Shown here one piece after another: positions 21,224 through 38,217 of a DNA stretch of 64,000 nucleotides. Below the pieces are notes generated by a model, which was given only the letters and a program-made list of their open reading frames with translations, searched no databases and was not told where the DNA came from. A program made the position numbers and the translations under genes. Each line of letters opens with the position of its first letter. Position 1 is the first letter of the stretch. This DNA comes from Hyaloraphidium curvatum (Eukaryota > Monoblepharomycota > Hyaloraphidiomycetes > Hyaloraphidiales > Hyaloraphidiaceae): NCBI GenBank assembly GCA_025558095.1, contig JAIVFI010000027.1:372001-436000 (forward strand). The letters run 5' to 3'.

Positions 21224-21255
21224 ACTTCATGCCCGGCACCCAAAGCTACACGGCC
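21010..21255. other. Unidentified inserted DNA fused to the SET1 3' end
   Basis: From about 21010 the sequence is neither SET1 nor the LINE body seen in other copies. Both strands are largely open: plus as the SET1 tail, minus as an extension of the LINE frame ([20 protein letters not shown]). It is probably part of an unrecognised element or a rearranged LINE end. Confidence 0.45.
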
Positions 21256-22049
21256 CAGAGTTTCCAATCTGGTCTGCAGCTTCTGGCATCGCTCTGCATT
21301 TGCTGAACAGTAAAACTGAGAATGTTGTTCGTCTCATGTGCTCAGGGTTATGTTTTGCAGGTCCTTGGTGCCTGCCTGTCTCCACCTCCAGATCGTGAGT
21401 AGAGCAGAGCAGCTTCTGGACGTCCCTCCGGTGCTTCTCCACCCGGATCAGGGACGGTGCAATGTGACCAAAGGTCATGTCACACATCCTCCAGAAGTGC
21501 AGCTTATCGTTGTCCTTGAGCTTCTGGGCATTGATCTCCCTGAACTTGCCCTTCACAAGATTCTCCACAGTCTCCTTGGCCCATGAAAAAGTGTCCTTCT
21601 CCCACATCTCCCTCCCCTCATCTCCACCATAGAACACAAGTAGTTCCCTCAGGAAGGCAGCCCAGTTCCAGCACCCCTTCAGTGCCTCGATCTTGAGCTC
21701 CTTGTAGAGCAGGTACAATGCAGGGTCAGCTGTTTTGATGCGCATGAGGAACTTGAGAGCCGACTCATGGTCATGAACTGCAAGAGGGTACTGGCCAGTG
21801 ATCGCGTACAGACAAGCCAGGGAGGTAGACTTGGGCTGATGAGTGACAGCACGAAGGGCCATGCATGTCACTTTGTCCCTGGTGCTTTCCCCGGCAAGGT
21901 ACTCCTCCTTGCTTTGGCATCTCCACAATGAACGGGTTCCCATATTGGCCCACTGCCTTGACCTTCGTGTTGTAGAGCTTGAGCTGGAGGTCAGGACCCA
22001 TCCCAGGCTGCTCCCTGATGTTGCGGAGCCAGAGCCCATAAGCAGCGTC
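21256..22049 (-). mobile_element. LINE fragment, C-terminal part of the RT protein (copy 1)
   Basis: Same family as the copies at 27276-28791 and 36557-38032. It encodes EEYLAGESTRDKVTCMALRA, SLACLYAITGQYPLAVHDHE, ALKFLMRIKTADPALYLLYK, FYGGDEGREMWEKDTFSWAK and the beginning of the C-terminal His/Cys knuckle. It is cut at both ends: the 5' side stops at about 22049 after CATAAGCAGCGT, and the 3' side leaves the family sequence at about 21256. It carries the family's 4-nt frameshift near 21910. A dead fragment. Confidence 0.85.
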
Positions 22050-22505
22050 TTAAAAAGAAGGAATCACAGTTGTTCGCGCGGACATGGTTGATGTATGCCC
22101 GAGCGTGTTGAGCTTGAACCATGCCGCCGTCGATGTCCTCCCCCGAAACGGCGTTGGCCATCACGGTCGGCATCACAGCGGCCTCCCCGCCGCTATGTAG
22201 TTAGTAGTCGAAGCCGTCGCCGTAGGTTGCTGCCTCGCCGGGCTCGTGGTCGTAGCCGACATAGCTGAGATCGGCTCCCTCACTGTCACCATGCATCGAG
22301 CCGTATCCCAGGAAGCCGAAGGCTGTCAGGCAAGGCTGCGATGAAGATCGATCTGGGTGCGGGGCGGGTGAGTTGCCTTCGGCAGCGGCGTCGCCTTACC
22401 GAGATGAACAGAGAGGATACGAATCGAATCAAAATGAGATAGCGGGATAAGGAACGGAAAATCAAGTCAGTATCAGTCGCGGATGTTGTGAGATCCGAGG
22501 GGAGG
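22050..22505. other. Sequence downstream of the gag gene, small frame on minus strand
   Basis: No recognised gene. On the minus strand a frame of about 64 codons after a stop near 22400 ends at 22201 with an acidic, Gly/Tyr-rich tail (GYGSMHGDSEGADLSYVGYD, ending YGDGFDY). It may be a last exon or the tail of the gag protein, reached after a frameshift. Nothing else is supportable. Confidence 0.3.
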
Positions 22506-22549
22506 TTTTCCGGGTTGAGGTGCGGTCAACCCGGGAAAACATATATATA
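22506..22549. repeat. Near-perfect inverted repeat next to a TATA-like run
   Basis: TTTTCCGGGTTGA and TCAACCCGGGAAAA form a 13-bp stem (one extra G in the right arm) around a GGTGCGG-side loop, followed at once by CATATATATAG. It could be a promoter operator with TATA on the plus strand, or a hairpin at the end of the gag element on the minus strand. Confidence 0.55.
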
Positions 22550-22636
22550 GCGACTCCCGTCCCAACCTCCGTCACGCGGCACACAGTCACGCGCCAGGCC
22601 CGCGGCCCCTCCTGGTGCGAGGCAAACGCTGACGTC

Positions 22637-22965
22637 GAGCACCACGGCCCCTTCGCAACGCCGGGCCCACGGCCCATACTCTAGCGCCGGGCCCACGGCC
22701 CCTTCGCGGCGCCGGGCCCGCGGCCCACATTCCACTCGCGGGGCCCGCGGCCCCTTCACGGCGCTGGGCACCGCGGCCCTCTTCTTTAAGCGTCTGGCAC
22801 CTCGGCCCCTCGCGATGCGGGGCACCGCGGCCCTTCCCCTAGCCGCCGGGCACCGCGGCCCCTTCAGGGCACCGCGGCCCTTCGCGACGCTGGGCACCGC
22901 GGCCCTTATCAACGAAGCGCCGGGCACCGCGGCCCCTTCGCGGCGCGGGCACCTCGGCCCAGGAT
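22637..22965. repeat. GC-rich minisatellite
   Basis: About a dozen diverged copies of a 20-28 bp unit built on GGGCACCGCGGCCCCTTCG with variable spacers. It starts inside the last codons of the gag frame (minus strand AAKGPRCPALR) and keeps open frames afterwards. Units vary in length, so this is degenerate rather than a fresh tandem array, and there are no constant-length spacers as in CRISPR. Confidence 0.75.
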
Positions 22966-24237
22966 CCCCCCCCGATTCTCACCCCCGCTGTGTTCCATCT
23001 GGGCATCTGCCAGCATGGCGTACGGCTGCTGGGGCAGTGACGGGCACTCGCGCTGTACGTGCCCCTTGCCATTGCAATTGTGGCACTTCTTGTCGGGGCA
23101 CGCCGATGCCACGTGCCCCGGCTTGCCGCATTCGTGGCAGGTGATCTCACTGGTCACCGGAGCCGGCCTCCAAACGGCAGCACCAGCCGGGCGGTAGCTT
23201 GGGCCGCCCATCGGCCTCAGTGTCTGCACGGGGTAGTAGCCGCGGCCTCCGCGCATGCCGCCACGTGCCAACCCGCGGCCGCGCATCCGAGTATCATGGC
23301 CCTGGCCTTGGATAGGAGCCATGCCGCTCGGTCTGTAGCTGGGGTACGGAGCGTAGCGACCGTGCTCGTACCAGGGGCGCTGCGGAGGCCGACTGAGGAT
23401 GCCACCACCACGGAGGGCTTGTTGGGGCGGCTGATAGGCAGTGAAGCCGGGTCCGAATCCAGCAGGGGGCAGGAGCGTCGGGAGTGTCGCCGGAGCTGTC
23501 ATCTTGACAGGTGCATGCGACATCTTGTTTCCTTGGGCTGTGTTAGCCGCATCCCGCATGCCATTGAACGAGAATGTTATACTCTCGCTCTTGCCGTCGT
23601 CGTTGAAGTGCCCGTCGTCGTCAATGACTCGGCCCCAGAATCCTTGGAGTTCTGCGAACGGGAAGCCTTCGGTGAACGTCACCATCAAAGCCACGTCGTA
23701 GTCTGAGAGTGGTTTCTTGTGCGCAAGTCTCTCTGACTTGATACTCAGCAGCTCATTGAAGTTTTGGTCCACAGTCTTTGAAGCGTCCCACTGCCACTTG
23801 TTTATGCGGACTTGGGACGCGTGTACCAAGCGCGCCTTTCCAACTTTGAACTTCTTGTGAATCGCGATCCAGAGGTCGTAGGCCGTCTTGGGCTCGTCGA
23901 ACGCTTCCTGGAGGACGTCGTCGAGCATCAACATGAGCTCGCCGTAGGCCTTTTCGGCCGTCGTCCTGAACTTGTGTTCCGTGAGGATCGAGTGCGCGGC
24001 CTTCTCTTCCTCGGCAAGGATGGTCTGCCTCTGCCGGTCTGTGGTCTCTGGAGCGGCGCTGCGCTCAGCAGCCCTCTTGCGGGCCTGCTCGAGCTGCCAG
24101 TCGATGCTGAGGACGTTGTTGACGACGTACTCGTACACCCCGAGCTTGTTGAGGTAGATGGGGGCCTTGCGGTCCCACTGGACCATGTTTTCACCGGTGT
24201 TGAGCAGGATAGGCTTGTCGGCATCGTTGGCTGTCAT
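22909..24237 (-). CDS. Retrotransposon Gag-type protein with two zinc knuckles, no pol
   Basis: 442-aa uninterrupted frame, ATG at 24237 (MTANDADKPILLNTGENMVQ). The N-terminal half has copia-type Gag (UBN2-like) helices: WDRKAPIYLNKLGVYEYVVN, AYDLWIAIHKKFKVGKARLV and QVRINKWQWDASKTVDQNFN. A Gly/Arg/Pro linker follows, then two CCHC knuckles, CHECGKPGHVASAC and CHNCNGKGHVQREC. No protease, integrase or RT follows; the frame runs into the minisatellite. It is unlike the Gag of the copia at 29014-36551. Either a gag-only (non-autonomous or captured) unit or a truncated element. The open frame amid decayed elements suggests recent activity or selection (inference). Confidence 0.85.
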   Translation of the reverse strand: MTANDADKPILLNTGENMVQWDRKAPIYLNKLGVYEYVVNNVLSIDWQLEQARKRAAERSAAPETTDRQRQTILAEEEKAAHSILTEHKFRTTAEKAYGELMLMLDDVLQEAFDEPKTAYDLWIAIHKKFKVGKARLVHASQVRINKWQWDASKTVDQNFNELLSIKSERLAHKKPLSDYDVALMVTFTEGFPFAELQGFWGRVIDDDGHFNDDGKSESITFSFNGMRDAANTAQGNKMSHAPVKMTAPATLPTLLPPAGFGPGFTAYQPPQQALRGGGILSRPPQRPWYEHGRYAPYPSYRPSGMAPIQGQGHDTRMRGRGLARGGMRGGRGYYPVQTLRPMGGPSYRPAGAAVWRPAPVTSEITCHECGKPGHVASACPDKKCHNCNGKGHVQRECPSLPQQPYAMLADAQMEHSGGENRGGILGRGARAAKGPRCPALR

Positions 24238-25257
24238 CCTGTCGCGGGCGGGCTTCCAGGGGTAGCAGGCACGTGTCAGAGCAGTTGAGACTCTTAATCC
24301 TTTGTTCCCCTGGTCGCAGGCGCCCAGAGACAGGTGCAGATGAGGCAGGTGGCGTTCCTGGTGTTTGTTGTGTTATTCCCCTCTCCCTAGAGCCGCCCTC
24401 CTAGGTTATTGTCTAGCCAAGATCCACCCATCCATCCAAGTCCAACATCCAACTCCAGGACCAACTCCAACTCGATCCGACGGCTCCAAACACATCCATC
24501 CATCCCCAGCAACACTTGTTCCCCGACTTCCAGGCGCTAACAATCAGGCTGACGGCTCAGCCTGGAGATATCTGGAGCTCCTGGAGAGCGAACTGCGACG
24601 TGGCGTGCGCGTGGTGAGGGTTTTGGCCTTGGGATGGAGGGGAGCCACCCTGGAACCCGCCGTGGGGTATCACACGACAAAGCTTGGGGGAGGACGCTGG
24701 GGCAACCCAGGGGTTGGACCACCAAGCCGTTGCCGGTGCCATGGACGGATAAAGGCGCCGTGGATGTCTCGCAGACAAGCGGGCGCCGAGAAAGATCCCG
24801 CGCCGCGCAGGTGCATGCAGGTGCAGGGCTTTGGTGCGGTGTGTCACCGTTCCTGAACAATGTGCCTTTGTGCCAGGCATGGGCTTGCCGAGGCGACGCT
24901 GCAGGTTAGCACGCGGATGCTTGCAGAGGTCGGCGGATCGGAAATCGTCACTCGATCATCCGCAGATTGGCCTCACGTCCCAGCATACTGTTGTCAGTGA
25001 ACCTGCGAAGCCAAAGATGGGCAAAGATAATGAACATTGGATCTTTCTTTTCTTTGCCCTCCCATGATTCGTTCCTGGGATTCTGCCCTGCCAACCTCGC
25101 TGGGAACAAGTACTCTGTCCATGACTACGATGAAGGTACAGTATGTTGCAAGCGGCTGCATATTTGTGCTCTGCCCTTGCACTGACATCATGAAGCATGT
25201 ACCAGCATCGCATTTGCTAGGTATCGCGTGAGGCATTTGACCTGAAGCACAAGATGT
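24238..25257. other. Gene-free stretch upstream of the gag gene
   Basis: About 1 kb with no supportable gene. It includes short runs of CCATCCATCC-type repeats near 24425-24530. The part next to the gag ATG is presumably its leader. I found no LTR pair. Confidence 0.35.
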
Positions 25258-25466
25258 AGAAGTTCGAGCCCATGATCAAAGTGAGGCGGCAGAAGGAGAA
25301 GGCCCTAAACTCCATTGCCAGCTTCATCTCAAAGTCCATGAAGGACAGAAAACGGGGAAATGAAAAAGATGCACGACGACAAACTGCAAACTAGCAGCAA
25401 ACTGATGGCGTAACAGCGGCCAAGCCAGGGGCAGGTCCGGGTCACCAATACTGTTCTATTCTGTTC
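25258..25466 (+). mobile_element. LINE 3' end fragment (copy a)
   Basis: Encodes the end of the LINE protein (VRRQKEKALNSIASFISKSM, then KDRK) and the family 3' UTR, with GCCAAGCCAGGGGCAGGTCC and the tail ACCAATACTGTTCTATTCTG. It is nearly identical to copy b 600 bp downstream and in the same orientation. Borders on the RNase H part of the gypsy remnant. Confidence 0.8.
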
Positions 25467-25844
25467 AGGTCACAGAAATGGCAAAAGGCACTGTGCAGCA
25501 AGAAGCTTGCTTCTTGCCCCATGCACTCATTTTTATACAGGCCATGCAGGTTGTGGTGGTCAGAGTACACAATCGTCCTGTGCTTTTCTCCTTCCAGGTA
25601 TAGTGTCTCCATTCTGCAAATCCTTCCTTGATTGCAAGCATCTCCTGGTCAAGCATGTCGTATATAGACCCCTTCGGTTTTGACATTGCCCTTGAGAAGT
25701 AGCACACCGGGTGCAGCTGTTCATCCTCCCTTTGTTGCAACAGAATTCACTGATCGCAAAAGCAGAACTGTCCGTCTCCATCACGAACTGCTCGTTAAAG
25801 TCAGGGTGGAGCAACACTGGTGGTGTGAATGCGCGTTTCAAGTC

Positions 25845-26082
25845 ATGGAGACCTGGCTCTGGGCTCTCAGCATCAAGGAGTTTGAGCCCACGATCAAAGT
25901 GAGGCGGCAAAAGGAGAAGGCCCTCAACTCCATTGCCAGCTTCATCTCAAAGTCCATGAAGGACAGAAAACAGGGAAAATGAAAAAAGATGCACGACGAC
26001 AAACTTCAAATTAGCAGCAAACTGATGGTGTAACAGCGGCCAAGCCAGGGGCAGGTCCGGGTCACCAATACTATTCTATTCT
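25845..26082 (+). mobile_element. 5'-truncated LINE insertion (copy b) with 17-bp target duplication
   Basis: 238 bp, from ATGGAGACCTGG to the tail ATACTATTCTATTCT. It is flanked by AATGCGCGTTTCAAGTC (25828-25844) and AATGCACGTTTCAAGTC (26083-26099), one mismatch in 17. Removing it rejoins the gypsy RNase H start. This fixes the true 3' end of the LINE family. Confidence 0.88.
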
Positions 26083-26665
26083 AATGCACGTTTCAAGTCC
26101 TCACAACGCCTTCCTGCATTCCTTTGTCCACTCCCAAGCTTGCTCTTTCTTCAACAACTTGTAGAGGGGCATTGCTTTCCTTCAAACCCTTCCACATATC
26201 TTCGCAGGTAGCTGGCAAAAAAGCCAAGAAACGTCCTCAGTTCCTTTGCATTCCTGGGTTCTGCCCAATCCAGGATGGCTTGACTTCTTTCGGATGTGGC
26301 TGGTACCCTTTCTCCGTGATCAGGAAACCTGCGTAGATGACTTCCGTTGGATCCCAGACGCACTTGTGTGGCCTGACCTGCAAGTTGTTGTCCTTCAACA
26401 CCTGGTGCACCTGCTTCACGTGCTCTGCGTGCTTGTTTGGGTCCTTGTCGTAAAGTAGCAACGTAGAGCTCAAGGGAAGCAAGCTTCCCCCGCTGGTCCC
26501 TTTTGACAACTAGATGGGCGCAATGTGTCGGATCAATGGAGGGAAAAGTAAACTGATTATATATATGCATAGAGCATCGCAGCACAATTTACAAGTCCTC
26601 AAACGCCTTCCTGCATTCCTTTATTTGTTTACTGCAAGTCATCCAAGTAGATCACCAACCAATCG

Positions 26666-26949
26666 CCGTGTATTGATAGATTGAGTTGCGTTTGGGATAG
26701 ATCTTGCAACTGCATTATTCAGGTCAAGCAACTGAAAAACAACGTCAAGCAGGTAGACTGGATAGATCATGCAGCTGGAGGTGACATCGTGCAAATGCAC
26801 TTGCAAGATCTCACCCACTGACTTGCTTGATCTATACTTTGCAAAGTTGACCTCACCTTATAAAACCAAATCTCGCCATGTTATTGGCAAAATGTCGCCC
26901 CAATTACACGATATCACCGCTTGAAGAACATGATCAATACGGCATGCAT
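26666..26949. mobile_element. Possible MITE-like element inserted in the gypsy RT catalytic motif
   Basis: 284 bp, richer in A/T than its surroundings, between two copies of CAATCG (26660-26665, 26950-26955). Without it and one copy, the minus strand reads FPDDWLVIYLDD, the expected RT motif. The left end CCGTGTATTGAT resembles the inverted right end (GCCGTATTGAT, seven bases in). Inside are exact inverted copies of AGATCTTGCAA (near 26699 and 26800) and a TTATAAAACC box. No coding capacity. Confidence 0.7.
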
Positions 26950-27275
26950 CAATCGTCCGGGAACTCGATGAAAATCGTTTTCATGTAGCACTGAAAAGCA
27001 CTGGGTGCGTTCCTGAGCCGAAATGGCATCACCAAGTACTCGTAAATTTCGTGCCAAGTTTTGAATGCAGTTTTCCAGTTGTGGCCTTCAGGCTGCTGCA
27101 AGATTGTGAATTTTGGTGAAGATCTTTGCTCCTGCAACTCTGTCCAACAGTCCGTCAGCAACGGCAAGCTGTAGTTGTCAGGAACCATGATTGCACTGAG
27201 GCCTTGATAGTTTATCACAGGCCTGGGACCGACCCCTGCCCTTGCTTTCTGCGTAGAAAAAGGGAGCTCCAGCAG

Positions 27276-28791
27276 GACTGAATAGAATAGTATTGGTGAC
27301 CCGGACCTGCCCCTGGCTTGGCCGCTGTTACACCATGAGTTTGCTGCTAATTGCAAAGTTCATCGTCGTCGTGTGTCTTTTTCATTTTCCCAGTTTTCCT
27401 GTCCTTCATGGACTTTGAGATGAAGCTGGCAATGGAGTTGAGGGCCTTCTCCTTCTGCCGCCTCGCTTTGATCGTGGGCTCGAACTCCTTGATGCTAAGA
27501 GCCCAGAGCCAGGTCTCCATGTTCCACTCGCGGCCTAGTGCTTCCAATCTAGTCTGCAGCTTCTGGCGACGCTCCGCATTTGCTGAACAGTGAAACAGAA
27601 AGTGTTGTTCGTCTCCAATGTGCTCAGGGTCATGCTTGCACGTTCTCTGCTGCACCTCAAGTCCTTGGTGCCTGCCTGTCTCCACCTCCAGGTCGTGGGT
27701 AGAGCACAGCAACTTTTGGACATCCCTCCGGTGCTTCTCCACCCGGATCAGGGATGGTCTGATGTGGCCAAAGGTCATGTCACACATCCTCCAAAAGTGC
27801 AGTTTGTCGTTGTCCTTGAGCCTCTGGGCATTGACCTCCTGAACTTGCCCTTCACAAGATTCTCCACAGTCTCCTTGGGCCATGAGAAAGTGTCCTTCTC
27901 CCACATCTCCTTCCCATCTTCGCCGCCATAGTATACAAGTAGTTCCCTCAGGAAGGCAGCCCAGTTCCAGGACCCCTTCAGTGCCTCGATCTTGAGCTCT
28001 TTGTAAAGTAGGTACAGCGCAGGATCCGCTGTTTTGATGCGCATGAGGAACTTGAGTGCCGACTCGTGGTCATGAACTGCAAGGGGGTACTGGCCAGTGA
28101 TCGCATACAGACAGGCCAGGGAGGTAGACTTGGGCAGATGAGTGACGGCACGAAGAGCCATGCATGTCACTTTGTCCCTGGTGATTTCCCCGGCAAGGTA
28201 CTCCTCCTTGCTTTGGCATCTCCACAATGAACGGGTTCCCATATTGGCCCACTGCCTTGACCTTCGTGTTGTAGAGCTTGAGCTGGAGGTCAGGACCCAT
28301 CCCAGGCTGCTCCCTGATGTTGCGGAGCCAGAGCCCATAAGCAGCGTTCATCTTGGCCTCCCTGCCATGCACATGGTCCTTGCTCCGCCCAGTTGACGTG
28401 AGCTGGTACCCCAGAAGCTTGAAACTGTCGACCCTCTTTAGCTCCTGGCCCCTCTCCTGATCCTCTTCCTCCTCAGACACCATGCCCAGATCCATCCCTT
28501 TTGCACCATTGGCCTCCATGAAAGCAGTGATGTCGTTGATGAATAAGATGAAGAACAGCGACGAGAGAGGGTCCCCCTGCTTCACTCCGGTCAGGAACTT
28601 GATGAAGTCCGACTTGGTCCCATCTTCATCCCGGAGCCGTCCCCACACGCGCCCAAACGCCATCTCGAACATGTCAACAGCCTGTTTGGGCACTCCCATC
28701 TCCTCTAGCTTCTGCCATAACCTGGGGCGCTCCACCGTGTCAAAAGCCTTTGTGAAGTCTACAAACACCATGATCAGCTTCTCCTTGCGTG
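27276..28791 (-). mobile_element. LINE copy c, RT without the FADD box, frameshifted
   Basis: Begins within the RT (KEKLIMVFVDFTKAFDTVER), continues GVKQGDPLSSLFFILFINDI, then jumps from GAKGMDLGMVSEEEEDQERG to KRVDSFKLLGYQLTSTGRSK, missing the segment that should hold F-A-D-D. Next KMNAAYGLWLRNIREQPGMG, a 4-nt frameshift near 28205, EEYLAGEITRDK to WEKDTFSWPKETVENLVKGK (second shift near 27840), the knuckle CKHDPEHIGDEQHFLFHC, and the tail SIASFISKSMKDRK. The 3' end at 27276 is the inverse of ATACTATTCTATTC. It is inserted in the gypsy remnant. Non-functional. Confidence 0.88.
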
Positions 28792-28970
28792 GTACTCCTC
28801 CTTCGGCATCTCACCAATGAACGGGTTCCCATATTGGCCCACTGCCTTGACCTTTGTGTTGTAGAGCTTGAGCTGGAGGTCAGGACTCATCCCAGGCTGC
28901 TCCCTGATGTCACGGAGCCAGAGCCCATAAGCAGCGTTCATCTTGGCCTCTCTGCCATGCACATGGTCCT
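28792..28970 (-). mobile_element. LINE internal fragment (e) joined out of order to copy c
   Basis: Encodes KDHVHGREAKMNAAYGLWLR and on to FIGEMPKEEY, then joins directly to the RT start of copy c. It belongs downstream of that RT, so the order is permuted. It lacks the 4-nt insertion found in copies 1, c and d, so its frame is intact there. Confidence 0.8.
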
Positions 28971-29013
28971 TGACCAATACTATTCTAACGATGCACGCCT
29001 CCTGGGAACCTGC

Positions 29014-29237
29014 TGTTGGAGTGGCTATGGGGCGTGGGGAAGACGTAGCCCCAGTGGTCTGAACCGGGTCAGAACTCAGATGGACGGGATGGGGAGAGGG
29101 ACAGTTTCACGTTGACCCGTTGTCCATTCCCTTGTGATGACAAGTCCCTAGATGACCCCTCCGATCGTACCCAAGTATCCCCACACGCCAATAGACTCCC
29201 TATTGATACAGAATCGTAGCAACGATCCATTCCAACA
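29014..29237 (-). repeat. Copia 3' LTR
   Basis: 224 bp with TGTTGGA...TCCAACA ends, same sequence as 36328-36551. Being 3' on the element strand, it follows the purine tract. Confidence 0.95.
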
Positions 29238-29247
29238 CTCCCCCTCG
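29238..29247 (-). other. Polypurine tract of the copia element
   Basis: On the element strand GAGGGGGAG directly precedes the 3' LTR, the expected site for plus-strand priming. Confidence 0.75.
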
Positions 29248-29285
29248 TTGCAAGATTCCCAAGAAGTGTCCAGAAATCCCCAAAG

Positions 29286-32200
29286 CTAGTCACGAATCTC
29301 TACAATTCCCATAAGTGCCCTGAAACGTTGAAACTTCTCCCTTGGTAGCTGTTTGGTGAGCAGATCCGCAAGCTGGTCCTCTGTGTTGATGTACTCCAGC
29401 TGTATCTCTCCACTATCAATTTTCTCCCTCACAAAATGGTACTGCACTCCAATGTGCTTGGTACGTTCATGAAAGACAGGATTCTGCGCCAGCTTGATAG
29501 CCCCCTCATTGTCCTCCTTGATGACTGTTGGCCCTTGCTGAGGAAATCCCAATTCCTCCAATAAACTCCTTAGCCACGCAACTTGACGTCCAGCATAAGA
29601 TAGAGCCATGTACTCGGCCTCTGTTGTTGAAAGAGCCACCACTGGTTGCAGTTGCGACTTGTAGATGATAAGACCGTTCCCCATCATCACTACAACCCCA
29701 GTTGTTGACTTCCCAGTGTCAAGATCCCCAGCAAAACTGGCGTCTGCATATCCATGCAATGCTTTGGTCATGTCCAGATTCGGATCCCTCTTGTAAACCA
29801 AGCCAAAGTCAGCTGTTCCCTTCAAGTATCTGGTTGTCTTCTTGACTTGCTCCACTGCTTCACGAGTAGGTGCCATCCCATGACGGCTCTCCGTGATAAT
29901 AGGTAAGGCAATGTCCGGCCTGGTGAAGTTCATGGCATACATCCAGCTTCCCACCATTGATCTGAACGGAAAACGTCCGATTTCCTGCTCCTCAGCAGCA
30001 GACAACTCCGTCTTCCGTTTCCTGAGCTTCACCCCAACGTCCACAGGTACAGAAACTGCGTTGCAAGTGTCCATTCCGAAATCCTCCAAAGCCTTATTGA
30101 TGTATTTGGACTGCTTGATTGTGATTGTTCCAGCCTTCTCGTCCTGCTTGATTTCCAAAGCCAGGAACTTTTTCATGCGACCCATGTAACGTATCTTAAT
30201 CTGCTTTCCCAGCTCCTCAAGAAATGCAATCGTCCGTTTTTCGTCCGTTGAGCTACATCCAAAGTCGTCCACATGAATAATCATCAAAAGAAACCAATCA
30301 TCTTGCCGCAGAAAGTAGATGCAGTACTCCTTTGAGCAACGTATAAGCCCCATCTCCGTGAGTATCTCGTGCAGGTGTCTGTGCCAAGCACGTGCAGCTT
30401 GCACAAGTCCATAAACCGCGACTCCAGGTCGAATTACAGTAGGTCTTCCATCAGTAAACTCAGGTAAATCCATCCCTTGAGCTGGATACAAGTAAACTTC
30501 CTCGTTCTCCTGGAGCTTAGCCTGTAGGAATGCCGCGTTTGCATCTGCCTGATGTACAATCATGTTGTTCTGAGCAGAAAGCCAAAAGAAAAGCCGTACA
30601 GCAGCAGCAGAAGGTACAGGTGCAAAGGATTGACCAAAAGAAGATGGATCCTGCCAATCACCCCTTGCCACCCATCGAGCCTTGTAGTTTTCCTCCCCCA
30701 CAATGCTGCCATCAGCTCCAGGTTTGAGGTCAAATACAAATTGGCTTCCAACCGCGAATTTTTCCTTGCCCTCAGGCAAGCCCATGATGTTGTACGCATC
30801 TCTGCTCTTGAAGTTGCCAATCTCACGTTCCATTGCCTTGGCCCACATCTCACGATCCTCTGAACGCATTGCCTCTGCATAGTTCCGTGGTACACGTGCT
30901 CCAGTGCTTGCAGCAAAGATTCCATCCATGTGTGCCATGTCCTCCCAAGTCGGTAGGTGTCCCTGCCAGTCCAGGTGGTCCTGGACCTCCTCCATCAGGA
31001 AATTGATCGATTCCAGCGTGATCACGTTGATCTCCTTCTCGTTGCTCGTGTTGGGGGCTTTCCACCACTCCCCAGGAGGTCTTGGAGCTCTGCTGGATGA
31101 CCTTGTAGGTAAAGGTATCTTAGAGCCCGTTCCAGCCGCCCCAGCGCCTCCCTGAGCTCCGCTGCTTGATGAAGATGCTCCTCCAGGCTCCCCACGTTGG
31201 TCTGTGGCTTCCCTAGCCGCACGATCACCAGAAAGTTGCGATCCACCAACTGCCTTTCCTCCCCCTGGATCGCCACTTCCACTGTTCCCAGAGCCTCTTC
31301 CACGAGTCACCAGCTCGTCCTCACTTTCGCTCTGAGCTCGTTGATCGCGTGACAGACGTAAATCCGTTCCCTGGCTGCCAGAACTTGAAGATTGATGTTG
31401 AGTACCTCCAACTTCCAGTCTTTGACCTCCTCCCCCGGCCTCCTGGCGCTCAGGTTGACGCTGCACACGGTCTCCCTGTGTCCCACGATGCTCCTGGTTG
31501 CCGTCGTCGATTGGATCTGCGGAACGGACCCGCCGTGGCGTCTCCGATGACGCCTCCAATTCCTCAGGCTGCGCCGACTCCTCCACGGCAAGTCGACGGT
31601 TCAATACAGCGCTCGGGTCCGCGTCCTCAGGTAGTTTTTCGACCAAAACTCTGCTTTCCAGAACCCGCATGTAGCTCTTGAGCGTCTTGTTTGACCAGCG
31701 TTCCTCGAAAACGACATCACGTGAGTCAAAAATCCGCCCGGTCTCAAGATTCTGGACCGTAAATGCCTTCGATCGCGAGCTCATTCCCAGGTAGCGGCAT
31801 TGTACCGCCTTAGCATCCCATTTGCCGCGCTTATCCTTGTCGACGATCGCGTAACACGTTTCTCCGAAACGTCGGATGTGGCTAATGTTCGCCCGTCTCC
31901 CAGTCAGCAGTTGAAACGGCGTAGACCCTTTCTGCCACGTCTTTGTATTCGGCAAACGATTGCGCGTATTGATATGATGCTTCAATGCGTATCCCCAAAG
32001 CGGCTTCGGCGATTTCGAGTCGATCAGGATGGTCCGGGTCCCTTCCTCAGCCGTCCGGTTCCGCCGCTCAATGACTCCGTTCTGCGCAGGCCGATTCGTT
32101 ACCGACGATTCCAACTTGATTCCCTCGTTCTTGCAGTACGCTTCGAGCCGTTTTGACGAGAATTCACCTCCGGGATCGACCCGCATGCATCCGACCTTTA

Positions 32201-32395
32201 GGCTGAACTGGTTCTTCACCCACTCGGCAAAGTGCATCATCCAGTCCTCCGCCTCCGATTTGTGCTTCAATAGGAACGCAAACTCCGCAGAAGTGTACTC
32301 GTCGACTGCATGCAATGCCCAGCGTTCTCCATGCACCGTTGCAACGTCCGATTGTGTCAGGTCCCAGTGAGTCAGCTCAAAAAGCGCGAAGGGAG
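29286..32395 (-). CDS. Copia Pol, C-terminal part: integrase, RT, RNase H
   Basis: Open frame from the mtDNA junction to the stop at 29286. Integrase: APFALFELTHWDLTQ, then VDEYTSAEFAF (first Asp), MRVDPGGEFSSKRLEAYCKN (second Asp), PAQNGVIERRNRTAEEGTRT (Glu). The GKWDAKAVQCRYLGMSS region follows, then a Ser/Gly/Arg-rich linker. RT: YKARWVARGDWQDPSSFGQS, IVHQADANAAFLQAKLQENE and the catalytic IIHVDDFGCSS, with HVDD in place of the usual YVDD. RNase H: GYADASFAGDLDTGKSTTGV, LSTTEAEYMALSYAGRQVAW, DNEGAIKLAQNPVFHERTKH. All key residues are visible, so the enzyme part looks intact apart from being cut off from Gag. Confidence 0.93.
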
Positions 32396-33223
32396 CACGA
32401 CCCGTACTCCTTCCTCACTTATTAGGCTCTCAGAATATAGGAAGCCCTGAGTGCTACGGGTCGGAATACAAAGCAGCCTTCCAGAATCAGACGAGGAGGA
32501 TCAGGATGTATTCTTGGTGTTTCTCCTCTTAGTTCTATAGACTATCGTAATGCTCCATAGATTATCTTATAACCTCCTTAAATCTATGGCTCATTACTCC
32601 AGTCTAAACGCAAACCAACGTCTTATTATAGTACTGTTTAGCTTAATTTATTTCTATCTTATCTATTAGGTCTCTCTTTTTAGTACTGGGTAGTAGGTTG
32701 GTTATGTCAATAGAAGATTTGGTAACTCGTAATAGTTCAAGTAGAGAGAGGTTGTATAGTGGACAGGAGGTCTCTCTAAAGATCAGATGGAGGAAACTAG
32801 GGTTACTCTCAGGATTAGTCATGATACTAAAGCCCTACTTATGCTTTATGCGACTAGGAGACATAAAGCTCTACTCACTCGTAACTAGAGTAAGCAGGGC
32901 TTTAGTGTAGTTGCAGCCTCATAACTCATGAGTAGAGCTTTATAGCTACATTAAACTCCTATTCAATACGAGCTTTTGAGGCATCCCCTGCCTCACCTCT
33001 CACTACTTGTAGGGGTTTATGTGTCAGGTAGTATCAAACCTAAGTAGAACTTCAACAATAATTAATTGATGGTAGCTTTTATTAGCCTACTACTGCTTGT
33101 CGTAGTACTTCTGGTAGCCAGCCTCTACGAGTAATAGTGAGAGTAGGTACTCAATAGAAACATTTGAGAGAGGATTGTGCGTAGCCAGGGAGCTTAATCT
33201 CTTAGGGCTAAGTAAAAGGGGAT

Positions 33224-33786
33224 ACTAGCTTAAGCTCAGAGAGTAGAGCTTTACTTGGTTAGTAAATTTGAATAGATCCTCGAATTCGGTGAAAGGCTAC
33301 CAGTAGCGAGAGAGCTACGGCGCTTTCAGCTCCAGCGAGAACGAGAAGATAGAGACTAAAGTGGGCTCCCATCAAGTCATCGAACAGAAAACCAAAGTAA
33401 ACTAAGCGGAAAGCAGCTACAAATACCATAATCTCAATGGCTAGAAGCATCAGGATCAGTTGTCGAGAGGAGAAAACGAATCCCAGCATAGCCACAATAA
33501 AGAGAGCCAGTAGGGTGATCATCGATGAGTCATACTTAGATTAAAGTTCTATTGAGGCTCTAAGCTAGCTAGATCATAAACCTCTAAAGTCCTACTTATG
33601 CTTTAGTGCAGTTACAGTCTCATAACTCCCTGAGAGTAACCCTAGTTTCCTCTGAGTTTAACCTATTAGGGTTAGGAACAGGGGGACTAGCTTAAGCTCA
33701 GAGAGTAGAGCTTTACTCATTTATTGCTAACTAAGTAGGAGATTGATGTAGCTCTAGCTAGCTTAAACTCAGAGAGTAGAGCTTTA
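33224..33786 (+). repeat. Dispersed mitochondrial repeat, three copies in the NUMT
   Basis: A 32-bp unit (core CTCAGAGAGTAGAGCTTTA) is identical at 33224-33255 and 33686-33717, and a 29-bp variant lies at 33758-33786, abutting the atp6 stop. Shorter and inverted cousins (TAAAGCTCTACTC, GAGTAGAGCTTTAT) occur near 32865 and 32930. Confidence 0.8.
33259..33522 (-). pseudogene. nad4L: NADH dehydrogenase subunit 4L (mitochondrial, transferred)
   Basis: 87-codon intact frame: MITLLALFIVAMLGFVFSSR, QLILMLLAIEIMVFVAAFRL, and the family ending AGAESAVALSLLVAFHRIRG plus SIQIY, TAA at 33259. Three membrane helices and the conserved Glu of the IEIM helix are present. Length is slightly under the usual 90-100. 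It lies in the nuclear NUMT, so it has no mitochondrial expression here; undamaged coding implies recent transfer. Confidence 0.88.
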
Positions 33787-33788
33787 AA

Positions 33789-34205
33789 TTACAAGAAGTC
33801 TTTGATGGTAATCATGCAGATGAAGGTATAGATGTAGGCTTGCAGATAAGCGATTAGTACTTCCAAGACGAGGAAAACAGTGAGGAGTACCATAGGAAGG
33901 ATGAGGATCAGAATGTTGGTTCCTCCCTCAAAGGCTTCCCACAGAAATCCACCGATTACTTTTACTAGAGTGTGTCCAGTAATCATGTTGACACTAATAC
34001 GGATACCAAGGGCAATAATACGAGTAACGTAAGCCAGCATTTCTACCACAACGAGCATAGGAATGAGGGGCAGGGGAGTTCCAGATGGAATGAAGAGTCC
34101 CATCATGGCGTATCCGTAGCGACGGAATCCATTGGCAATGGCAGTGACCAGAAGGAATACAGCCAGGTTAAAGGTAATGATGCTTATTTTGTGTTGGTTA
34201 GTTGG
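33789..34205 (-). pseudogene. atp6: ATP synthase subunit a (atp6), C-terminal part
   Basis: Open frame of 138 codons after a TAA at 34206-34208: ITFNLAVFLLVTAIANGFRR, SGTPLPLIPMLVVVEMLAYV, TRIIALGIRISVNMITGHTL. It includes the essential Arg of the ALGIRISVN helix and ends at 33789. About 100 N-terminal residues are absent. The truncation point lies in a GT-rich tract (34190-34240), between this and trnY. Confidence 0.88.
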
Positions 34206-34306
34206 TTATTATGAGGGGGTGTTGGTGTTGTTGTTTTATGTGTATGCGTTATAGTAGGGCTGCAGGTTTTGGCTGAAAGATCTAGTGCTAGTAATATAAA
34301 GGGTAT

Positions 34307-34358
34307 TGAGGCGGGTAGGAATCGAACCTACTTTAGTACAGGACCTCAGAGTTACAGT
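34307..34358 (-). tRNA. trnY: 3' part of mitochondrial tRNA-Tyr(GUA), truncated
   Basis: Reads GACTGTAAC (anticodon GTA in a CTGTAAC loop), 3' anticodon strand TCTGA, a longer variable arm, T-arm GTAGG-TTCGATT-CCTAC, and acceptor CCGCCTC plus A. The D-arm, 5' acceptor strand and most of the 5' anticodon strand are missing because the NUMT junction falls there. The long variable arm fits tRNA-Tyr of organelles. Confidence 0.8.
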
Positions 34359-34362
34359 CACG

Positions 34363-36153
34363 CTCCGACTCCGGATAGGGCAACTGATGCATCTTGCCCA
34401 TCACGCACTCCTTACAGAAGTTGTTGAGGTTTCCAGCAAACACGTACTCCTCCAATCCATCCACAATCCCAGCCTGTTGAACCTTCCTGAGTGCCGCGAT
34501 CGGGTAGTGCCCGCAGCGCCCATGCGCAATCTCCGCGCTCAAATCCCCTTCCTGAGCACTCAGCATGATCTGTTCGTCATGCTCGTTGAGGATTTCCGCG
34601 TTGAGATAGTAAACGTGACGATCTATGCGGCAAGTGCCCCGCACGTCGCCGCCCTTGGTGATGGCCCCTCCATCCGGACCCAGAAGCGTGTAGTATCCCA
34701 TCTGCCCTAGTCTCCCAATCGAAATGAGCGTTGCAGGAAGATCTTTGATGAAAAGCACATCTTCCAGGGTGACGATGTCGCCAGAATTGGTGAGCTTGAT
34801 CTTGAGCTTTCCGACTTCGATCGCACGCGCGATCCCTTTTCCCATTCGAACATCAACTGCATCGCACGGCTTGATGCCGTAGAGCAGTTCCCTGATTCCC
34901 GTCGCGTGCACGGACGCGCCGCTATCCCCCATCAGCCTGCCGCGCATCTCCTGGCCCGTCTTCGCCGCGTGCACGACGTGTTCCGGGGTTTTTTCGTATC
35001 CACCGTCCCCCGTCGTCTCCCCATCGTTTCCCTCGATTCCGCCCTCCATCATGAACAGGAACGCGCCGAATCGATCTTCCAGATCGGGGAGATCGCCCAG
35101 GGTGAGCGTGTTCTGCTGCTCTCGTGCCGTTTTCCCATCGTCCTTCCTCCAGCACACGGCCTCGAGATGACCGTCCTTTCCGCACTTGTTGCAGGTTTTG
35201 TCACGATGGGTGCAGTCCTTCTTGACGTGTCCACCCTTCCCGCAGCAGAGGCACGTGATTCCCGAGCCGTTTTCGCCCTCCGCCGTGGCCTGCCGACCCC
35301 CGCGATTTCCGAATCCTCGCCCGCGACCCCTTGAACCCCCGCGGTCACCTCCATGGCCACCCCGTGATCCTCCGCGACCCCTGCCACGGTTTAGAGCGTA
35401 CATCAACGTGTTTGGAGCGGGATTCACGGTTATGTTGGCTGCCCCAGGTGAGTACGTATCACCATTTTGCTCAGCTCGCTTGATCATAGTCTCCTCTTCC
35501 ATCTCCATCCTCTTCTGAAGGTATGCAACGTTCAAGATAGGGTGTTTCTTCACTCCATTTTCAGTCTTCCACTCGTGTTTGGTCTGTGCTCCCAGCCAAA
35601 TGCCGTCAATCTCGGCCCGGACTTGATCAAACTCAGGTAGGTCCTTCAGGACTTTCCTCCAGATGCTCATATCATCGTCATCTCCCTTCAGCTTTCCCAG
35701 TGCTTCAACTTCCATCTTTTTCTGCATGAAGCGGGTAAAATTCGGAGCCACCCGGTCGGTTTTGATGAACTCAAAGCTGTAGTACTGGACCTCGGCGTTC
35801 CCTTGCTGCGCCACATTTTCCGTCACGAAACGCTCCTCTAGGTAGTCCCAGATGTCCTTAGCAGTGTCCATCCTGCTGCAGATCCTTTTGAGACCAATAG
35901 AGAGTGATCCTACCAGGATCCCTTGAGCTTTCTGGTCCTTCGTGTTCCAGGCTGACAAATCATCTTCCGTCTTTCCTCCCTGCCCTACCACGGGCTTTGC
36001 CACCTTTCCAGTCACAATTTGCCAGTCACTCTCCCTCTGGAGCTTGGCCTTGATGTCAATTAACCAATCCTGGTAATTGGTTTGTGATCCGGTTTCCTCG
36101 AGCTTGGCCCCCCCAAACAATGCCACACGGGTTCCTCCGACCGAAATCTCCAT
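34363..36153 (-). CDS. Copia Gag-protease and start of integrase
   Basis: ATG at 36153 (MEISVGGTRVALFGGAKLEE). Gag: NYQDWLIDIKAKLQRESDWQ, RICSRMDTAKDIWDYLEERF. Arg/Gly-rich spacer, then two CCHC knuckles, CLCCGKGGHVKKDC and CNKCGKDGHLEAVC. Protease: RLMGDSGASVHATG with the DSGA active site. GAG-pre-integrase: RCGHYPIAALRKVQQAG and the zinc-binding FCKECVMGKMHQLPYPESE. The frame then hits the NUMT and stops soon after inside it. Together with 29286-32395 this was one polyprotein. Confidence 0.93.
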
Positions 36154-36313
36154 CCCGGCCGCCGCAGCACCTCTAGTGCTTCACGCGCTCTTTCTAGCGC
36201 CCACTGAGTCCACCCAGGCGGTCCTGGAGACCAGACTCAGCTGGATGCGGTCCCCTCGGCTGGTTGCGCCACACGCAACTTCAAAGCCGCGCAAAAGTGT
36301 TCTGGACACCCTT

Positions 36314-36327
36314 TGGGCTCATAGACC
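36314..36327 (-). other. Copia primer-binding site, initiator tRNA-Met half type
   Basis: Next to the 5' LTR the plus strand reads GGGCTCATAGACC, sharing GGGCTCATA with the anticodon arm of eukaryotic initiator tRNA-Met. The element strand is thus complementary to the interior of that tRNA, as in Drosophila copia and Ty5, rather than to a tRNA 3' end. Confidence 0.65.
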
Positions 36328-36551
36328 TGTTGGAGTGGCTATGGGGCGTGGGGAAGACGTAGCCCCAGTGGTCTGAACCGGGTCAGAACTCAGATGGACG
36401 GGATGGGGAGAGGGACAGTTTCACGTTGACCCGTTGTCCATTCCCTTGTGATGACAAGTCCCTAGATGACCCCTCCGATCGTACCCAAGTATCCCCACAC
36501 GCCAATAGACTCCCTATTGATACAGAATCGTAGCAACGATCCATTCCAACA
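36328..36551 (-). repeat. Copia 5' LTR
   Basis: 224 bp, same as 29014-29237. On the element strand it precedes the primer site; 36154-36313 is untranslated leader. Confidence 0.95.
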
Positions 36552-38217
36552 CCTGCTGCGCCCCATCACCCTCAAGGAGCTCGAGAAGGTCCTGAAGAAG
36601 GCTCCTAACGGCAGGGCAGCGGATGAGGATGGGATCAGGCTCGAGTCCGTCAAGTACGGGACCACTGTGCTGAAGCAAGCTGTTGTCGATCTGCTCAATG
36701 ACGTGCTCAATGGGGTCGACATGCAAGACTGGGGCCAGACACTCCTGGTGATGCTGCACAAGAAGGGGCCCAAGAACGTGGCTGGCAACTACCGGGGCAT
36801 CAGCATAGAGAGGACACTGGAGAAGGTCTTCTCCCTGGTCTGGAACGCTCGGCTAGCTCCCTGGGCTGAGTGCAACAAGTTGCTGGAAGGCTCGCAGTTT
36901 GGATTCCGGGCACGGAGGTCCACCCTTCATGCAGTGTTCCTTGCTGTGGCGCTCTTCTCCTTGGCCAAGGCACGCAAGGAGAAGCTGATCATGGTGTTTG
37001 TAGATTTCACAAAGGCTTTTGACACGGTGGAGCGCCCGAGGTTGTGGAGGAAGCTGGAGGAGATGGGTGTACCCAAACAGGTTGTTGATATGTTCCAGAT
37101 GGCGTTTGGGCGGGTGTGGGGAAGGCTCCGAGATGAGGACGGCACCAAGTCGGACTTCATCAAGTTCCTAACTGGAGTGAAGCAGGGGGACCCCCTCTCA
37201 TCGCTGTTCTTCATCTTGTTCATCAACGACATCACTGCTTTCATGGAGGCCAATGGTGCAAAAGGGATGGATCTGGGCATGGTGTCTGAGGAGGAAGAGG
37301 ATCAGGAGAGGGGCCAGGAGCTAAAGAGGGTCGACAGTTTCAAGCTTCTGGGGTACCAGCTCACGTCAACTGGGCGGAGCAAGGACCATGTGCATGGCAG
37401 GGAGGCCAAGATGAACGCTGCTTATGGGCTCTGGCTCCGCAACATCAGGGAGCAGCCTGGGATGGGTCCTGACCTCCAGCTCAAGCTCTACAACACGAAG
37501 GTCAAGGCAGTGGGGCAATATGGGAACCCGTTCATTGTGGAGATGCCAAAGCAAGGAGGAGTACCTTGCCGGGGAAAGCACCAGGGACAAAGTGACATGC
37601 ATGGCCCTTCGTGCTGTCACTCATCAGCCCAAGTCTACCTCCCTGGCTTGTCTGTACGCGATCACTGGCCAGTACCCTCTTGCAGTTCATGACCATGAGT
37701 CGGCTCTCAAGTTCCTCATGCGCATCAAAACAGCTGACCCTGCATTGTACCTGCTCTACAAGGAGCTCAAGATCGAGGCACTGAAGGGGTGCTGGAACTG
37801 GGCTGCCTTCCTGAGGGAACTACTTGTGTTCTATGGTGGAGATGAGGGGAGGGAGATGTGGGAGAAGGACACTTTTTCATGGGCCAAGGAGACTGTGGAG
37901 AATCTTGTGAAGGGCAAGTTCAGGGAGATCAATGCCCAGAAGCTCAAGAACAATGATAAGCTGCACTTCTGGAGGATGTGTGACATGACCTTTGGTCACA
38001 TTGCACCGTCACTCAAGCCGCCCGGGGCAGGTCTGGGTGATACTATTCTTTCACGTTTTTTGCATCATTCCGGAAACCTCTCTGGGTCACTCTGGAAACA
38101 CCCTCCACATGCAACTGATGGCACTTGCATTTTCTCCACAGAAAGAAGCGAGTACAACAGTACAACCAGCATGGTATCATCGGTATACGATTGCAGTCCC
38201 TTTCACGTACAATGCCA

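Follow-up and report, generated by a model that had tools for sequence, protein, structure and literature searches.

Mitochondrial DNA within a copia element within a LINE copy, in a repeat island that is a candidate centromere

The window, a 64,000-nucleotide stretch of contig C27 (C27:372001-436000) in a eukaryotic assembly of 31.9 Mb and 55 contigs, contains a LINE copy split by a complete copia element, which is itself split by a segment of nuclear mitochondrial DNA (NUMT). The explanation that best accounts for this arrangement, with a probability of roughly 0.85, is a series of nested insertions in which mtDNA was captured by end joining in a copia element that had already integrated. 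The nested insertion is real and its mechanism is ordinary; the surroundings, an island of LINE and copia sequence, are of greater interest than the object itself. An initial annotation of this DNA had named all three layers and their nesting correctly, and its borders for the copia element are exact. The borders that it gave for the other two layers, and several of the conclusions that it drew from them, are revised below.

The copia element occupies exactly 29014-36551 on the minus strand. Its two 224-bp LTRs (3' LTR, 29014-29237; 5' LTR, 36328-36551) are identical and have TG..CA ends, and the element is flanked by a 5-bp target-site duplication, CCTGC, at 29009-29013 and 36552-36556 on the plus strand. 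The coding sequence lies in two parts, both on the minus strand. The part upstream of the insert (34361-36153) encodes gag, zinc knuckles, the protease region, and pre-integrase sequence (Pfam Retrotran_gag_2, 6.6e-16; Pol_BBD, 2.4e-12; gag_pre-integrs, 1.9e-4) and is 99.5-99.8% identical to six full-length sister copies elsewhere in the assembly. The downstream part (29286-32381) encodes the integrase core, an SH3-like domain, and reverse transcriptase (RT) (rve, 1.6e-4; SH3_retrovirus, 6.2e-21; RVT_2, 2.8e-39). The six domains thus follow one another in the Ty1/copia order, with the integrase upstream of the RT. Before the 3' LTR, where a polypurine tract would be expected, the sequence is GAGGGGGAG; no tRNA is assigned to the primer binding site expected after the 5' LTR. 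Domain order, TG..CA LTRs, and 5-bp duplications, which in sister copies on C35, C32, C3, and C22 read TGTCG, AGAGC, CATCT, and TGAGG, are those of the Ty1/copia elements of fungi, from which the window family differs in its short 224-bp LTRs and its near restriction to one island per contig.

The sister copies also supply the empty site of the NUMT. Seven sisters and one diverged copy (L063-L069 and L071) carry the site intact, reading CAGCTCAAA-CGGCCGCGAGACTTTC-CGCTCCGACTCC, where the right flank starts with CGCTCC. The window copy retains the outer parts of this site, and the middle 16 bp, CGGCCGCGAGACTTTC, have been exchanged for 1,979 bp of mtDNA at 32382-34360 (minus strand). The copia match to the sisters stops exactly at 32381. 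The junctions show no target duplication, and neither end carries more than 1 bp of extra sequence. Mitochondrial DNA had been recognized inside the copia element, but its borders had been placed at 32400 and 34358; the first ∼18 bp that were then assigned to copia are mtDNA-like, and the same bases occur in a NUMT on C32. At 7,538 bp, the copia element of the window exceeds the 5,575 bp of most sisters (five measure 5,574-5,575 bp) by 1,963 bp, a number not divisible by 3. It had further been claimed that removal of each layer restores the layer beneath in frame. Across the NUMT site, the sisters translate as PESERKVSRPFELTHWD, whereas after excision of 32400-34358 the frame is shifted and runs into a stop (...PESERACSLRAF*), and the split LINE copy is itself frameshifted and lacks 62 RT codons. 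The claim fails because 16 bp of copia have been lost, the net change is 1963 bp, and the LINE copy is out of frame.

The insert is identified as mitochondrial by its genes, and its GC content is 42%, compared with 54% in the surrounding copia. On the minus strand, it carries an intact 87-codon nad4L frame (33259-33522; Oxidored_q2, 3.5e-10), whose top PDB hit is chain L of the fungal structure 7zm7 (E = 7.9e-19), and the 3' part of atp6 (33789-34189), which covers positions 118-214 of the 217 of the ATP-synt_A profile and lacks the N-terminal half; the atp6 reading frame extends upstream, beyond the profile match, to about 34189. At 34309-34359 (minus strand) lies the 3' part of a mitochondrial tRNA with a perfect 5-bp T stem and a 7-nt TTCGATT loop. 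This is probably a tRNA-Tyr whose sequence breaks off on the 5' side of the anticodon loop; ARAGORN reports no whole tRNA there, and an Rfam search of the insert gave no match. The NUMT may be a composite of two joined fragments because the N-terminal half of atp6 is missing and 34190-34300 carries no assignment. Three copies of a 37-bp repeat lie in the mitochondrial spacers around nad4L (33219-33788).

The full mtDNA segment occurs once in the 31.9 Mb. Further mtDNA-like pieces are present on C35, C32, C19, and C5, and a copia element within LINE sequence recurs on C3 and C36, so that the description of the object as rare finds no support. The first bases of the window NUMT, AGCGCGAAGGGAGCACGA, also open the small NUMT on C32: window positions 32382-32400 and positions 1613-1649 of that locus (L003) belong to separate NUMTs that share their first mitochondrial base, AGCGCGAAGGG; mtDNA may end or break preferentially at this point. 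The C35 and C32 NUMTs (L002, L003) are without short segments that are found in the window NUMT at 32382-32701. Such segments could be mobile hairpins that inserted into mitochondrial spacers.

That a LINE copy is split by the copia element is likewise upheld, with borders at 28994-29013 and 36557-38049 in place of the 28971-29013 and 36557-38032 given earlier. When the two flanks are joined, they align with a LINE copy on C40 (L010) from CACGCC at 28994 through CCTGC and into 36557 onward (218/224, 97%). Because this relative reads uninterrupted across the empty site, the copia element landed in a LINE. The 5' end of the split copy (28994-29013, plus strand) closes with the 5 bp of the copia target site; upstream of about 28994, the copy has been truncated. 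The remainder (36552-38049, plus strand) carries an RT domain (Pfam RVT_1) that abuts the right border of copia, a 186-bp in-frame deletion at ∼37309, a frameshift further on, a second deletion at 38013/38014, and then the 3' tail ATACTATTCT at 38040-38049. The 186-bp deletion removes 62 RT codons, including the FADD catalytic motif, which the sister copies retain; the window copy thus has no intact catalytic RT motif. A spliced intron was considered for this gap and rejected, as its borders are not GT-AG; the missing bases were deleted at an AGG repeat. The LINE was inactivated before the arrival of copia or independently of it. The assignment to LINEs draws on RVT_1 in the window copy, on the joint presence of Exo_endo_phos_2 and RVT_1 in a more complete C2 copy, and on the tail and the 5' truncations. 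Genome-wide, the LINE 3' end reads GGGGCAGGTCCGGGTCACCAATACTATTCT followed by (ATTCT)n.

The occurrence of ATACTATTCT at both 28977 and 38040 might be read as a 10-bp LINE target duplication. We rejected this reading, as the sequence is the LINE's own 3' terminus throughout the genome. The 15 bp at 28972-28986 (plus strand), GACCAATACTATTCT, are what is left of the tail of another LINE, ending as LINE copies do genome-wide, and belong neither to the split copy nor to a target duplication. Next to it lies an inverted LINE copy (27280-28972, minus strand), with its 3' tail near 27293-27280 and a LINE match at 27434-28972, in which a 182-bp segment is repeated (28791-28972 repeating 28211-28382). 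The two full LINE copies of the window, 27434-28972 and 36552-38013, have the same 62-codon FADD deletion, so either a defective LINE sublineage copied itself or there was a local duplication.

The order of events had been described as directly readable from the DNA. For the two outer layers this is correct, as the CCTGC duplication and the sister LINE make the LINE older than the copia element. It is also clear that mtDNA entered copia sequence, since the sister copies carry the empty site. The insert itself does not show whether entry came before or after integration of copia at this locus. We infer that the NUMT is likely the later of the two because no second NUMT-bearing copia is present in the assembly. 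In our account, a LINE that tends to insert into its own older tails built a repeat island on the chromosome, and a copia element integrated, with a 5-bp duplication, into a 5'-truncated and internally deleted LINE copy. End joining at a later double-strand break in the integrase region of copia would then have patched in a 1,979-bp mtDNA fragment, with the loss of 16 bp of copia, and left the pol gene permanently broken. The small target deletion, the absence of a duplication, and the blunt or near-blunt joins fit end joining, the accepted route by which mtDNA is captured at breaks (PMC2820518). Ordinary double-strand-break NUMTs share with this one an mtDNA fragment, a small target deletion, the lack of a duplication, and a single copy per event (PMC2820518); the window NUMT differs in lying in a young retrotransposon copy, with an empty site that is given by its sisters.

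We weighed this account against others that would place the mtDNA in copia by a different path. The mtDNA could already have been present in a parent copia, or could have entered the copia cDNA when reverse transcription switched templates to mitochondrial RNA, so that a chimera integrated in one step. As expected of a chimeric cDNA, nad4L, atp6, and the tRNA have the same sense as copia, and a lost parent could account for the single copy. However, the assembly holds no second copia with the window NUMT, and two switches would be needed, leaving and re-entering the copia RNA just 16 bp apart. Intergenic sequence is also present in the NUMT, as is a tRNA remnant that is unprocessed; both are more like DNA than like what mature mitochondrial RNA would provide, and we regard the one-step chimera as unlikely.

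A misjoining of mitochondrial reads into a copia copy during assembly is a further alternative. Mitochondrial DNA is abundant in any library and copia is repetitive; but both junctions lie in one copia copy, 16 bp apart in sister coordinates, there is no long common sequence at the junctions to mislead an assembler, and other mtDNA-like pieces are present in the nuclear contigs, all of which makes such an artifact very improbable. The version of the initial annotation, in which a precise NUMT at 32400-34358 can be removed to restore the copia frame, has in its favor that the joined protein appears copia-like by eye. With the sisters setting the borders at 32382 and 34360 and the join running into the stop noted above, we give it practically no credence. 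Capture of mtDNA by end joining in an integrated copia remains the reading that we prefer.

The nested object, a NUMT in a nearly new retrotransposon, had also been presented as datable. This is overstated. Zero differences in a single 224-bp LTR pair bound the age only loosely, and an absolute date needs a rate. The near-new appearance is a trait of the family as a whole because all seven sisters examined have 0-1 differences between their LTRs; youth is a property of the whole copia family and hence a weak clock for the window copy. The assembly, in which a search for a mitochondrial contig found none (COX1 is absent), likewise provides no mitochondrial genome against which the NUMT could be dated. 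Against all seven sisters, the window copia has 13 private differences in about 5,559 sites, and 7 of the 13 are clustered at 30044-30105. The copia sequence within LINE sequence on C36 (172952-184549; L063, L069) is a dimer with two internal regions, three LTRs, and GATCA flanks, and a tandem duplication is common to both of its internal regions.

The nested insertion lies in a LINE/copia island at 21248-38049 (about 21.2-38.0 kb), which contains several LINE fragments and the copia element; LINE matches fall at 21248-22046(-), 25258-25313(+), 25844-25931(+), 27434-28972(-), and 36551-38013(+). To count such islands, we scanned the assembly for exact patterns of the LINE RT motif, which gave 70 sites, and of the copia LTR, which gave 51, and added the LINE matches. 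The two families form 43 tight clusters on 40 contigs, compared with about 100 clusters expected from 121 independent random sites; almost all of the large contigs carry one such island. Exactly one cluster is found on 37 of the 40 contigs, in keeping with the one nested cluster per chromosome of Zepp-type elements; two are found on C1 and C8, where they are well separated, and on C35, where they are close. This once-per-contig context did not figure in the initial annotation. Insertion into the tails of older copies is seen as well: 12 of 26 distinct LINE tails are joined directly to other LINE sequence, a proportion that is biased upward as the loci were fetched for their LINE/copia content. 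At L012, L017, L021, L022, L025, L074, and other loci, the LINE terminates in (ATTCT)n, and a younger copy often starts right after an older tail. The right end of C27 (L060) carries a telomere-like (TTAGG)n array with a 5-bp unit.

In the green alga Coccomyxa, the Zepp element inserts into its own tails and forms single clusters that probably mark the centromeres (PMC3446292, PMC8226300). The islands described here resemble those of Zepp and ZeppL in green algae in their nested clusters, tail insertion, 5' truncation, and approximately one cluster per chromosome, and differ in the (ATTCT)n tail, in also holding copia and gypsy elements, and in their non-photosynthetic opisthokont host; the likeness described here is one of behavior (PMC3446292, PMC8226300). 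In other fungi, candidate centromeres are enriched in copia (Ganoderma leucocontextum) or in LINEs (Tricholoma matsutake) (PMC10817607). The elements there are different ones; in the present assembly, LINE and copia share their islands. By analogy with these systems, it is plausible that the C27 island is a centromere, and we treat it as a candidate.

As to the host, a photosynthetic (algal) organism was considered and rejected: a search of the assembly for light-harvesting proteins (LHC) gave no match, the mitochondrial proteins encoded by the NUMT are closest to fungal chains in the PDB, and C25 has an exon of elongation factor 1A with an opisthokont-type insertion, which we take to be a marker of that group. 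We take the host to be a non-photosynthetic opisthokont, probably a fungus. We see an even chance that the window lies in a fungal regional centromere, the product of a self-nesting LINE joined by copia and gypsy elements, Zepp-like but of independent origin outside the green algae, and that the mtDNA capture records a break in that centromere.

These results highlight that sister copies of copia can reveal the exact junctions of a NUMT and the 16-bp loss at its target, correcting a claim that was made by eye. The LINE/copia family marks about one island per contig, and the islands are directly testable. If they are centromeres, self-targeting LINEs would have made centromere-like clusters in a lineage that is distant from green algae.
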